Assembly (NCBI GenBank): GCA_025353485.1
Contig: JANXQO010000152.1
Location: forward strand, 1 to 53,481
Length of the DNA stretch: 53,481 nt
Direction: 5' to 3'
Source: Chitinophagales bacterium
GTDB taxonomy: Bacteria > Bacteroidota > Bacteroidia > Chitinophagales > Chitinophagaceae
In this document: positions 24,526 to 50,595 of the stretch, in pieces
Position numbering within the stretch: the first letter of the stretch is position 1
Layout: every line of letters begins with the position of its first letter
Made by a program: the position numbers and the translations under genes
Notes under the pieces: generated by a model
Database searches by the model: none
What the model was told of the DNA's origin: nothing
Seen by the model: the letters and a program-made list of their open reading frames with translations, nothing else

Positions 24526-25854
24526 ATGTCTAACATAACTTTTCCCCCTTCGGGGGATAGGGGGCTAAAAATAATAATTATAGGGGGCGGATTTGGAGGA
24601 TTAAAACTTGCACGTTCATTAAATAACAAAGCAGGCTTTGAAATTTATTTGTTAGACAAATATAATTACCACCAGTTTCAGCCATTATTTTACCAGGTGG
24701 CAACAGCGGGGCTTGATGCAAGCAACATTTCTTTTCCACTCCGTAAAGTTTTTCATAAAAGCAACAATGTACATTTTAGAATGGCGGAAGTAAAAGAAAT
24801 TATTTCTATAGAAAATAAAGTAATAACTGATATTGGTGATTTTGTTTACGATGTTTTGGTTTTAGCAACAGGCGCTGATACAAACTTTTTCGGTAATCAA
24901 CAATTAATTGATAATGCCTTCCCCATGAAAAGCACTGTGGAAGCAGTTCAGCTTCGTCATCGCCTGATCCACAATTTTGAAGATGCATTATCAGCAAAAA
25001 CGGAAGAAGAATTACTACGTCTTTTAACGATTGTTGTGGTTGGCGGTGGCCCCACAGGAGTTGAGATGAGTGGTGCTATTGCAGATATGCGAAGATTTGT
25101 TTTACCAAAGGATTATCCTGAATTGGACTTCTCAAAAATGAAAATTTATTTGCTGGAAGGAAGTCCGAAAACATTGGGAGCAATGAGCGAAAGATCCAGT
25201 AATGATTCTCATAAATATTTAGAGAAATTAAATGTTATTGTACAAACAAATACAATTGTAAAAGATTACGACGGGCAAACGGTAACACTGCAAAGCGGTA
25301 ACACAATTGAGAGCTCATTGGTAATTTGGGCAGCAGGAATTAAAGGAAATGTACCTGCAGGAATAAATAAAGAATTAATTGTGAGAGGCAATAGAATTAA
25401 AGTGGACAGGATGAATAAGGTTTTGGACTTTGAAAATATTTTTGCCATTGGTGATGTTGCTTATATGGAAACTGAAAAATATCCTCACGGCCATCCGCAA
25501 GTTGCATCTGTAGCTATTCAGCAGGGAAAATTTCTCGCCTATAATTTACGCAGAATGGAAATGAAAAGTCATCATGTAGAAGAGTTTGAATATTATGATA
25601 AAGGCACAATGGCAACAGTGGGGCGCAATCTTGCAGTAGTTGATATTCCAATCCCGATACCTATCGGGGCTAAGCTTCATGTAAAGGGATTTTTAGCCTG
25701 GATGATGTGGATGGGATTGCATCTCGTTTTATTGCTGGGTGTAAAAAACCGCTTTGCAGTTTTTAGCAACTGGATTTATAATTACATCACTTACGATCAA
25801 AACCTGCGATTGATTTTTAAAGAGTTTTATCGCCCTAAAAAAAATGAAGTATAG
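24526..25854 (+). CDS. ndh: Type II NADH dehydrogenase (NDH-2)
   Basis: Single-subunit flavoprotein that passes electrons from NADH to quinone at the membrane without pumping protons. The FAD-binding GGGFGGLKLA lies near residues 19-28, the NADH-binding VVVGGGPTGVEMSGA in the middle, and FAIGDVAY near 305. The C-terminal amphipathic and hydrophobic segment (FLAWMMWMGLHLVLLLG) anchors it. Two features are odd. Residues 7-14 (PPSGDRGL) are encoded by a G/C palindrome, and residues about 376-382 (IPIPIPIGA) contain a CCCGATA/TATCGGG palindrome. Neither lies in the catalytic core. The stop codon is at the edge of a third palindrome. Confidence 0.93.
   Translation: MSNITFPPSGDRGLKIIIIGGGFGGLKLARSLNNKAGFEIYLLDKYNYHQFQPLFYQVATAGLDASNISFPLRKVFHKSNNVHFRMAEVKEIISIENKVITDIGDFVYDVLVLATGADTNFFGNQQLIDNAFPMKSTVEAVQLRHRLIHNFEDALSAKTEEELLRLLTIVVVGGGPTGVEMSGAIADMRRFVLPKDYPELDFSKMKIYLLEGSPKTLGAMSERSSNDSHKYLEKLNVIVQTNTIVKDYDGQTVTLQSGNTIESSLVIWAAGIKGNVPAGINKELIVRGNRIKVDRMNKVLDFENIFAIGDVAYMETEKYPHGHPQVASVAIQQGKFLAYNLRRMEMKSHHVEEFEYYDKGTMATVGRNLAVVDIPIPIPIGAKLHVKGFLAWMMWMGLHLVLLLGVKNRFAVFSNWIYNYITYDQNLRLIFKEFYRPKKNEV
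24544..24567. repeat. G/C-run palindrome inside the N-terminal codons of ndh
   Basis: CCCCCTTCGGGGG (24544-24556) is followed by TAGGGGGCTA, which is the complement of TAGCCCCCT at 24423-24431 just after serA. The two parts look like the halves of one gene-border repeat split by about 110 bases. The right half codes for residues 7-14 of the NADH dehydrogenase. Confidence 0.6.
25653..25668. repeat. CCCGATA/TATCGGG palindrome inside ndh
   Basis: CCCGATAC followed by CTATCGGG: arms of seven bases with a mismatched centre, read in frame as part of IPIPIPIGA. It is related to 39898-39913 and 11434-11451. Confidence 0.55.
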
Positions 25855-25885
25855 GTGTCTGACAACTTAAAGTTGTCTGACACCT
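25853..25885. repeat. 33-nt imperfect palindrome at the ndh stop (copy 1 of a two-copy family)
   Basis: Arms AGGTGTCTGACAACTT and AAGTTGTCTGACACCT are joined by one A, with a single mismatched pair (CTG opposite CTG). It fills the 32-base gap between the convergent ndh and helical-repeat genes and could terminate both. A second copy lies in a coding region at 49968-50000. Confidence 0.75.
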
Positions 25886-25886
25886 G

Positions 25887-26399
25887 TTACATCCAGCTCT
25901 CTAAAAGTTTTTGCGCCCTGCTTTTAAAACCTGTGGATTGATAAGGCAATTGTTCATCAATTAAAACTTTTATTTCGGGTATTATTTCGGGATATTTTTT
26001 TGCAAGATTGCCTAAAACTGTAAGTGAAAAAACTTTAACAGCTACCGGTTCGGTTGGTGAAGCAAGGTAACCAAAGCATATCTCCATAATTTCTCCCTGA
26101 TATTTTTCAGGAATTTCTACATGCTGTAAAAGCCTGATCGAATTTCTTTTTACCGCATCATGCAAACCAGGTTTGTGAAGATTTTTTATAAGTTTTTTAA
26201 AATAGTTTTTAATAAATTTTGGATGAGCAACTACACAATAGCTTACCGGCCATGCCGCCCTTTGATTAACACCATACACATCATTGAGAAATAAATTAAA
26301 CATCTCTTCAAATCTTTTTTCAGAATCACCAACCCATTGTACAATTTTATTGCATTGTGCTTTTGAATGTTCCCTTAATAACTCTTCACGTAAATTCAT
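25887..26399 (-). CDS. HEAT-like helical-repeat protein of unknown function
   Basis: A 170-residue soluble protein made of helical pairs. Recognisable units are AVKRNSIRLLQHVEIPEKYQGEIMEI and EPVAVKVFSLTVLGNLAKKYPEIIPEI, which fit the adaptor-like HEAT/ARM pattern. The conserved-looking NDVYGVNQRAAWPVSYC segment near residues 39-55 suggests a family-specific surface. No signal peptide is present, so it is probably cytosolic. It is the last of a minus-strand group with the VOC and DinB genes; the gap to the VOC gene holds a repeat. Confidence 0.7.
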   Translation of the reverse strand: MNLREELLREHSKAQCNKIVQWVGDSEKRFEEMFNLFLNDVYGVNQRAAWPVSYCVVAHPKFIKNYFKKLIKNLHKPGLHDAVKRNSIRLLQHVEIPEKYQGEIMEICFGYLASPTEPVAVKVFSLTVLGNLAKKYPEIIPEIKVLIDEQLPYQSTGFKSRAQKLLESWM

Positions 26400-49139: not shown

Positions 49140-50219
49140 TTATACATTCAGCAAATCCTTTTCTTCCTGCAATCTCTGCAACAGTGTAACCTGATTTTTT
49201 GCCCTTATATAATTTTGCCCTTCGTATTTTGCTCCATAATAAATATCATCATTTAAATGATCAGTGATGAACCGGATAGCCTGCATGTATATCATGAATT
49301 TTCCTGCATAAAGAAAATATTTTTTTTCAGTTGTGGTTAATTCCCCTGCCATTTCACTTTCATATCCATTTACTATCGCTTCATAAAAATCTTTTCTAAC
49401 TTCAATTTTGCTGAAATCACTTTCATCTTCGGTAACCGGTGAAAGATATGTTCTCATCATATCTCCGGCATCACTTATAAAATACCCCGGCATTACAGTA
49501 TCAAGATCAATAACACAAATACCTTTATCTTCTTCATTAAATAATACATTACTTATTTTGGTATCGTGATGTGTAACACGAATCTTAAATTCAGGGTTCA
49601 ATTTTATTTTTTCAAATTCGTCAACAATATTTTTTTGCTGATGAATAAAGTTGAGAACGTCTTTTGATTTTTCAATCTTCTCTTTTTTTCCCTTTTGTAT
49701 TGCTATCTGAAAATGTTTGTAACGAAAGGATAGATCATGAAAATGAGGCAAAGTAATTTTTAATTTGGAAGCATCAAGCCCGGATAAAACGTTAGTAAAC
49801 TTTGCAAACTGTTTCGCTGCTTCATAAGCCTGCTCAGGCTTTTGCACAACATCAATAGAGTGAGAATTTTTTATAAAGGGAAACATTCTGAAATAGCCAT
49901 CATCCGTTTTCACAATGTCATTCCCATCTTTTGTTTGCAATGGAGATGTAAATAAATATTTTTTTCCAGGTGTCTGGCCACTAAAAGTGGCCTGACACCT
50001 TTGAAGATAATCTGCAATCAACCGGATATTAAAAGCAATATCCTCCGGAGATTTAAAAACATTTTGATTGATCCGTTGCAGAATAAATTTTTTCTCATAA
50101 CTTTTATTCTCAACGATCCAGGTATTATTAATCAGACCATTGCCAAAGGATAGCGCAGAATAATTTTCAATTCCAAATTTTTTAAGTACTCCGTCCAATT
50201 GCATTGTTTCTAAATTCAA
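49140..50219 (-). CDS. Aminoglycoside-phosphotransferase-fold kinase, N-acetylhexosamine kinase-like
   Basis: A 359-residue small-molecule kinase of the APH fold. The catalytic loop is RVTHHDTKISNVLFN (Asp and Asn) and the metal-binding motif is CVIDLDTVMPGYF with DAGDMMRTYL after it. The opening LSFGNGLINNTWIV is the nucleotide-binding loop seen in N-acetylhexosamine 1-kinases. Position opposite a GH109-like gene fits phosphorylation of a released amino sugar, but this is inference. A 33-nt palindrome is inserted in frame at 49968-50000 and encodes 11 residues (RCQATFSGQTP, residues 74-84) in the N-lobe. Confidence 0.85.
   Translation of the reverse strand: MNLETMQLDGVLKKFGIENYSALSFGNGLINNTWIVENKSYEKKFILQRINQNVFKSPEDIAFNIRLIADYLQRCQATFSGQTPGKKYLFTSPLQTKDGNDIVKTDDGYFRMFPFIKNSHSIDVVQKPEQAYEAAKQFAKFTNVLSGLDASKLKITLPHFHDLSFRYKHFQIAIQKGKKEKIEKSKDVLNFIHQQKNIVDEFEKIKLNPEFKIRVTHHDTKISNVLFNEEDKGICVIDLDTVMPGYFISDAGDMMRTYLSPVTEDESDFSKIEVRKDFYEAIVNGYESEMAGELTTTEKKYFLYAGKFMIYMQAIRFITDHLNDDIYYGAKYEGQNYIRAKNQVTLLQRLQEEKDLLNV
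49968..50000. repeat. 33-nt imperfect palindrome inside the kinase gene (copy 2 of a two-copy family)
   Basis: Arms AGGTGTCTGGCCACT and AGTGGCCTGACACCT with a 3-base centre and one mismatched pair at the same place as in copy 1 (25853-25885). Two other stem pairs differ from copy 1 by changes on both sides (A-T to G-C and A-T to C-G). The length, 33, keeps the reading frame. Confidence 0.85.
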
Positions 50220-50244
50220 TTTGTACGTGTAGGATCAAAGAGTA

Positions 50245-50272
50245 TCTCACGTTTATCGTCTCACGTTTCACG
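50245..50272. repeat. Heptamer array (TCTCACG, TTTATCG, TCTCACG, TTTCACG)
   Basis: Four 7-bp units, also readable as two 14-bp units with two differences, in the gap between the ferritin-like gene and the kinase gene and 26 bases upstream of the kinase ATG. Confidence 0.65.
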
Positions 50273-50277
50273 ATTAT

Positions 50278-50595
50278 TTATTCTTCAATTTTATCTTCAG
50301 CCTTCTCTGCATTCTCAACAATATCTCCTGCTTTAAATAAAACATTTTTCAGTATGGTGCGCCAGTTATCTTTTTTTCTTGCTAAAAATTCCAGGTCCAT
50401 ACTAAAGTGGATGAACTCTTCGTTTTGTGCATGTTCCATAATTGCTTTTGCGTCCTCATCTTTTTCAACACTTATCCGCTGCTCATACCAGTTAATGGCA
50501 TCTGCTTCTTCAATAAGTGATGTGATCATGCGTGCAAATGTTCTTGTTTTCTGGGATAGTTCGCCCGCCGGCTCGTGGTATTGTTCTGTTGGCAT
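50278..50595 (-). CDS. Encapsulated-ferritin-like protein without a neighbouring encapsulin
   Basis: A 105-residue two-helix protein of the EncFtn family, which forms ring-shaped decamers with a ferroxidase centre. The start YHEPAGELSQKTR matches the family. SLIEEADAINWYEQR carries Glu29/Glu30 and Trp36, and HAQNEEFIHFSM carries Glu59/Glu60 and His63. These correspond to the Glu, Glu, His iron ligands and nearby Trp of known EncFtn. The end is Asp/Glu/Lys-rich (NAEKAEDKIEE) and shows no encapsulin-targeting peptide (LTVGSL-like). No encapsulin shell gene is next to it. Iron oxidation is likely from the conserved ligands; encapsulation is not supported. Confidence 0.85.
   Translation of the reverse strand: MPTEQYHEPAGELSQKTRTFARMITSLIEEADAINWYEQRISVEKDEDAKAIMEHAQNEEFIHFSMDLEFLARKKDNWRTILKNVLFKAGDIVENAEKAEDKIEE

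Follow-up and report, generated by a model that had tools for sequence, protein, structure and literature searches.

The two 33-nt palindromes found in a 53,481-nt stretch of DNA from a Chitinophagales bacterium (the whole analysed stretch is referred to here as the window) are very probably copies of a REP-like, non-autonomous mobile element that owes its present or former movement to a RAYT-type HUH Y1 transposase, the gene of which is on another contig of the same genome (C5:9943-10557). One of the copies lies in frame within a gene for an ordinary kinase.

Two hairpins in the window

Both copies have the length and the positions reported in a preliminary description of this DNA, 25853-25885 for copy 1 (site C57a) and 49968-50000 for copy 2, each on the plus strand, which in copy 2 is the strand carrying the T.T mismatch. 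The structural claims made there also hold: a single T opposite T is found at position 8 in both, and the inner stems (GACAACT/AGTTGTC in copy 1; GGCCACT/AGTGGCC, between the arms AGGTGTC/GACACCT, in copy 2) differ by paired substitutions, A-T to G-C at pair 10 and A-T to C-G at pair 12. The pattern AGGTGTCTG-N10-20-CTGACACCT matches twice in the window and never in 100 dinucleotide shuffles; two such matches are unexpected by chance.

Copy 1 is situated between the stop codons of two convergent ORFs, a putative ndh-like ORF of 442 aa (24526-25854, plus strand) and an ORF of 170 aa (25887-26399, minus strand), the stop of the latter being 1 nt beyond the hairpin. It had been described as intergenic, which is right with respect to the two ORFs but not to the stop codon of the upstream one, a TAG whose AG comes from the hairpin itself.

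Copy 2 lies within a minus-strand ORF of 359 aa (49140-50219; the mechanical ORF listing starts it at a TTG, and there is an in-frame ATG at codon 6, with its first base at 50204). The product belongs to the APH family (PF01636) and resembles N-acetylhexosamine 1-kinase (4wh1, E 1.8e-48). The hairpin encodes the peptide RCQATFSGQTP. Matches to the kinase exist in 102 other genomes; of the other loci the 29 best were aligned, and 29/29 homologues lack this insert. Neither this result nor the number of copies in the genome (see below) is one of those named beforehand as refuting the earlier interpretation. A search for the orthologue in the near relative G147 recovered none, so that the empty site in the kinase rests on homologues which are about 60% identical or less. 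One of the 29 source genomes, G100 (the same as G150, judging from the hairpin coordinates), carries the hairpin family elsewhere. The addition of "exactly 11 residues" claimed earlier is correct for the codons of the hairpin itself, but the net gain of the protein is nine residues. Between the kinase and the next gene (50243-50281) we also noticed a repeat, TATCTCACGTTTATCGTCTCACGTTTCACG, with short matches at several other places in G147 and in a further relative, G148.

A dispersed hairpin family

The family is not limited to the two copies in the window. A strict hairpin pattern was found at 10 places in the genome, as opposed to 0 in the reversed control, and a covariance model trained on 17 copies, all of which are included in the final set, detected at least 23 distinct places at E<=0.001 and one weak match at E 0.18 (C76:28126-28158); since 150 of 1599 first-look candidates were scored, the count may be a lower bound. 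These 24 copies constitute a dispersed family of short hairpins such as is expected of a REP/RAYT system in the broad sense. T is opposite T at pair 8/26 in 21/24 of them, and 93% of the stem cells are Watson-Crick pairs, compared with a mean of 77% and a maximum of 82% in shuffles. Nine further pair types are present where 4.5 are expected, with a shuffle maximum that is likewise nine. A literature search for the string GGTGTCTGACAC, judged by titles and the opening parts of abstracts, revealed nothing concerning this repeat.

The copies are found predominantly at the ends of genes. Ten of the 24 overlap a gene 3' end, seven of them encoding the last residues (e.g. VSDT or VSGH) and three touching the stop codon only; in another eight the distance to a 3' end is at most 12 nt, which brings the total to 18/24, and two are elsewhere. 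The remaining four are inside genes, all in frame according to mechanical ORFs: those for the kinase, a YfcE-like phosphodiesterase (contig C148), a peptidyl-prolyl isomerase (C159) and the RAYT (C5). In the 6 nt preceding the hairpin on its 5' side, read on both strands, GT[AG]G, the guide of canonical REPs, was found in 0/24 copies. Strong conservation is seen in none of 20 flanking columns, two of which (positions -1 and +5) lie slightly above the 99% null.

Empty sites and the 3'-end hypothesis

For the phosphodiesterase gene, four relatives were searched; the fourth gave no match, and in the three where the site was found (G147, G148 and G045) the hairpin is lacking and the reading frame is continuous. 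These relatives are about 9 nt longer than our gene minus its hairpin, corresponding to a net gain of 24 nt (eight residues) here. Net gains of nine residues in the kinase and eight in the phosphodiesterase, instead of 11, imply that a few codons were lost at insertion, and a simple insertion leaves this net loss of 6-9 nt unexplained. Orthologous sites without the hairpin were also found for C41 (in G148), C139 (in G147 and G148), C151 (in G148) and C141b (in G045), while at C141a a diverged hairpin is present in G147 and none in G148. The gaps at C66, C76, C103, C154, C176 and C57a are occupied by other sequence in the relatives (C185 was left out of this comparison); in the case of C57a, i.e. 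copy 1 of the window, the sequence TAGGTGTCAG stands directly at the stop in G147 and may be what is left of one hairpin arm. The empty sites support mobility of the hairpin, and together with the intact kinase frame they agree with the initial suggestion of a mobile hairpin tolerated within proteins.

Could the hairpins instead be RNA-level elements of mRNA 3' ends, terminators or stabilizers under selection, with the coding copies arising by accident? The 18 copies at gene ends would fit such a role, several stems have been kept by paired changes (see below), and the gap at C76 is occupied in two relatives by a terminator-like hairpin with a T run. However, the orthologous places at C41, C139 and C151 are empty in relatives and four copies reside inside genes, and we consider this explanation unlikely, even if some hairpins may have been used as 3'-end elements later. 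Intrinsic terminators in particular were rejected, because a T-rich 8-mer is found directly beside the hairpin in 5/24 copies versus a background of 22%, which gives no terminator signature. The two relatives just mentioned (L258 and L271) have a GC-rich hairpin followed by the T run opposite the weak copy C76:28126-28158, between convergent genes.

A RAYT gene with flanking and internal hairpins

In agreement with the earlier statement that the window has no transposase, 0/10 Pfam Y1_Tnp matches of the genome fall on its contig. The search for a RAYT/TnpA gene elsewhere led to an ORF of 204 aa on contig C5 (C5:9943-10557) with the motifs NHFH and YIHQN, as judged from the alignment. One hairpin ends 34 bp upstream of it, another begins 2 bp past its stop, and a third (C5:10289-10321) lies in frame inside it, encoding the peptide MVSDTLKVSDTM. 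With 19.1 bits (E 0.0015) against Pfam Y1_Tnp, where the cut-off is 23, the gene was missed by this profile alone and was found through its hairpins. It matches NCBIfam REP_Tyr_transpos (NF047646) at E 8e-10, below the cut-off, and so do three related RAYTs from named loci. The best fold match of an AlphaFold model of one of these relatives is 4er8, the E. coli RAYT with its REP hairpin; as the model is poor (pLDDT 52), we regard this as weak support. The protein thus has the HUH and Y motifs of a Y1 transposase and a predicted RAYT fold, the latter taken from the low-confidence model of a relative. Its Y motif reads YIHQNA, that of many close relatives YIHQNP, and the HUH motif is NHFH in both.

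The in-frame hairpin stretch is missing from 30 other aligned RAYTs; the linker at this place is of variable length, and in several of them it holds a different sequence about as long. The RAYT of G147 is interrupted by an in-frame stop, and its internal hairpin (C5b) has decayed. A plasmid search with the RAYT gave five distant matches.

The genome encodes other RAYTs as well. A second intact one (L304, C171:52649-53230) is 55% identical to the C5 protein and has no AGGTGTC hairpin within the surrounding 3 kb. Another (L305, C7:30552-31157, 201 aa) contains a different hairpin, AACTTTTGGAAAG...CTTTCCAAAAGTT, inside its ORF and has one more 23 nt upstream; it is a second RAYT with self-insertion in the same genome.

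Hairpins and RAYTs in other genomes

The strict hairpin is present in 5/147 genomes of the family and in 0/2 other genomes of the same genus; of these five, G121 does not belong to the 56 genomes in which a RAYT was matched. Scanning the genome collection gave 46 stretches, 36 of them titled Bacteroidota, two titled only "bacterium", four from Bordetella and four singletons elsewhere. Close RAYTs (E<=1e-30) are encoded in 11/25 hairpin-bearing genomes, all 11 among the 18 titled Bacteroidota or only "bacterium", compared with 14/142 family genomes without the strict hairpin. The association is significant when genomes are treated as independent, both for 11/18 (Fisher p 2.4e-6) and for 11/25 (p 1.1e-4). 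A RAYT hit is absent from 14/25 hairpin-bearing genomes at E<=1e-30 and from 8/25 at E<=0.001. Where strict hairpins and a close RAYT coexist, 8/11 genomes have a covariance-model hit no more than about 230 bp from the RAYT gene, and adjoining pairs occur in the named genomes REEB328, UBA1930 and LacPavin. Several related RAYTs are flanked by hairpins of the same build and other sequence, e.g. GGTCAGACGGCTCAAAGCCGTCAGACC; for some others the scan found no flanking hairpins.

In the survey of named genomes, 27/54 hairpins lie outside any ORF of at least 100 aa and more than 20 nt away from the 3' end of such an ORF, and the 3'-end bias is weaker there than in our genome. Five of the nine internal calls in that survey lie in Bordetella or Acidobacteria ORFs, and these calls were not relied on. 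RAYT-like genes of Bordetella (L289, L286, L290) are located near several hairpins with a GTGTC[TA]G core; those of L289 have A.T in place of T.T (7/7 listed), and the motifs of this intact gene, NHVH and YIELNP, are those of a RAYT subclass listed without REPs in the available part of PMC6006769.

A further possibility is that the hairpin is a selfish palindrome comparable to the Rickettsia palindromic element, spread by another or a lost mechanism, with the RAYT being an ordinary host gene of hairpins. In-frame copies in four genes of one genome are reminiscent of such elements, the RAYT is a putative mover, and some hairpin-bearing genomes have no RAYT match. We nevertheless find this account very unlikely, because hairpins repeatedly bracket RAYT genes in different genera, and RAYTs with hairpins of other sequences exhibit the same layout. 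The resemblance to Rickettsia palindromic elements is one of layout only, namely palindromes in frame in genes for unrelated proteins: those elements are longer, we know of no transposase for them, and here the repeat has 33 nt and is accompanied by a RAYT.

Comparison with known systems and a possible mechanism

REPs usually number in the hundreds per genome. The family described here shares with REPs and their RAYT/TnpA-REP genes (REPtrons) a short imperfect stem-loop with a conserved stem irregularity, and copies that flank the RAYT gene and are also scattered over gene ends and the interior of ORFs (PMC3733652, PMC8266576, PMC6006769); that REPs can be located at the ends of genes, serve as stop codons or lie within ORFs has been reported before (PMC3733652). 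Unlike REPtrons, it has no GTAG/GTGG guide, comprises 24 copies, and exhibits a single T.T mismatch instead of the bulge of E. coli REPs. The preliminary assignment to REP-type elements of Y1 transposases is upheld by the RAYT with flanking and internal copies and by the at least 23 places, but not by the guide, and the family is not a canonical REP.

It resembles, as a guide-less variant, the "atypical" RAYT-associated kind reported from Bacteroidetes, where RAYT subclass 2.6 (RAYT group 5) has, according to the available text of PMC6006769, "atypical" secondary structures on its flanks of which further copies exist in the genome. Common to both are a Bacteroidota RAYT, the YIHQNP motif in many relatives and atypical flanking structures with copies elsewhere; the differences are NHFH in place of NH[LIV]H, YIHQNA of our protein in place of YIH[QN]NP, and the hairpin inside the RAYT. 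An in-frame REP inside tnpA-REP is, in the same text, called unique to subclass 2.4. The copy inside the 204-aa ORF is alike in this respect, but the protein has YIHQN, not YIxNNP, and a double-foot GT[AG]G is lacking; as far as sequence features go, the C5 RAYT combines those of subclasses 2.6 and 2.4.

By analogy with the solved TnpA-REP and IS200/IS605 systems, a single strand would fold into the hairpin, the T.T mismatch would mark strand and structure for binding, and the RAYT would cut the hairpin and join it into a new single-stranded site. TnpA-REP binds the single-stranded hairpin in a strand-specific manner and irregularities of the stem matter, while in IS608 and ISDra2 unpaired or mismatched bases are contacted, according to the available text of PMC8266576; the T.T pair would mark the strand in a comparable way. 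With no GTAG/GTGG guide in 24 copies, the choice of the site would have to differ from that of canonical REPs. Copies would survive where they do little harm, that is at stop codons between genes and in frame where a protein is variable, for instance in the N-acetylhexosamine-kinase-like gene. Counting against movement by the RAYT are the missing guide, a number of copies that is small for a REP, NCBIfam scores below the cut-off for our RAYT and its three relatives, the hairpin-free RAYT on C171, the 14/25 hairpin genomes without a close RAYT, and kinase homologues that are only about 60% identical.

Paired evolution of orthologous hairpins

Nine orthologous hairpins were compared with those of G147 (BLAST pieces 75-92% identical, mostly 82-88%), leaving out the decayed C5b and the diverged C141a. 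They exhibit five compensatory changes of Watson-Crick pairs, ten one-sided stem changes, so that pairing is not strictly kept, and changes in the loop; the coding copy at C159 has one compensatory paired change. Along with the paired changes of the two window copies, this agrees with the original proposal that the hairpin is preserved while its sequence drifts. At C16, C114 and C77, one strand has T.T in one genome and A.A in the other, and inverting the hairpin or its centre reduces the distance from 5 to 3, from 10 to 5 and from 8 to 5, respectively, as it does in 0/6 others. Compensatory changes and swapped mismatch strands between orthologous hairpins of two relatives are the new detail of this family.

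Such changes would be expected from template-switch correction of arms and inversion of the spacer. Homogenisation of arms and inversion of spacers are products of template switching between inverted repeats described in PMC8604942, and PMC8794818 concerns the maintenance of hairpins (both in their available parts). After landing, the arms would thus remain matched during drift, probably by switching between them, and the same process is proposed as the reason why some orthologous copies are inverted. Alternatively, a hairpin may have been replaced by a different copy, or the two genomes may have acquired theirs independently at one site. We also put forward, tentatively and as a rather doubtful idea, that replication keeps copying arm onto arm, so that guide-less RAYT hairpins stay palindromic, and that the same switching inverts the centre, making T.T a reversible strand switch for recognition by the RAYT even in copies fixed in protein genes. 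That each hairpin was made in place by template switching on short inverted repeats, with no transposition, is hardly credible: the paired changes and swapped strands would fit it, as would the AG...CC, resembling the hairpin ends, at the empty phosphodiesterase site of two of three relatives, but AGGTGTC...GACACCT arms, mostly with T.T, recur at unrelated sites here and in other genera, by which independent origins in place are largely refuted.

The copies form a compact natural set for studying REP-like movement without a GTAG guide and the way palindromes stay matched. The relatives, mostly 82-88% identical, allow compensatory change and inversion to be traced event by event; the orthologous set includes a coding copy for which an RNA function is an unlikely reason, and cases with empty sites are added for in-frame insertion of RAYT hairpins in ordinary enzymes. 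In G147, three places (L231, L232 and L233) carry a sister hairpin, AGGTGTCCTACACCT...AGGTGTAGGACACCT, whose palindrome is perfect.
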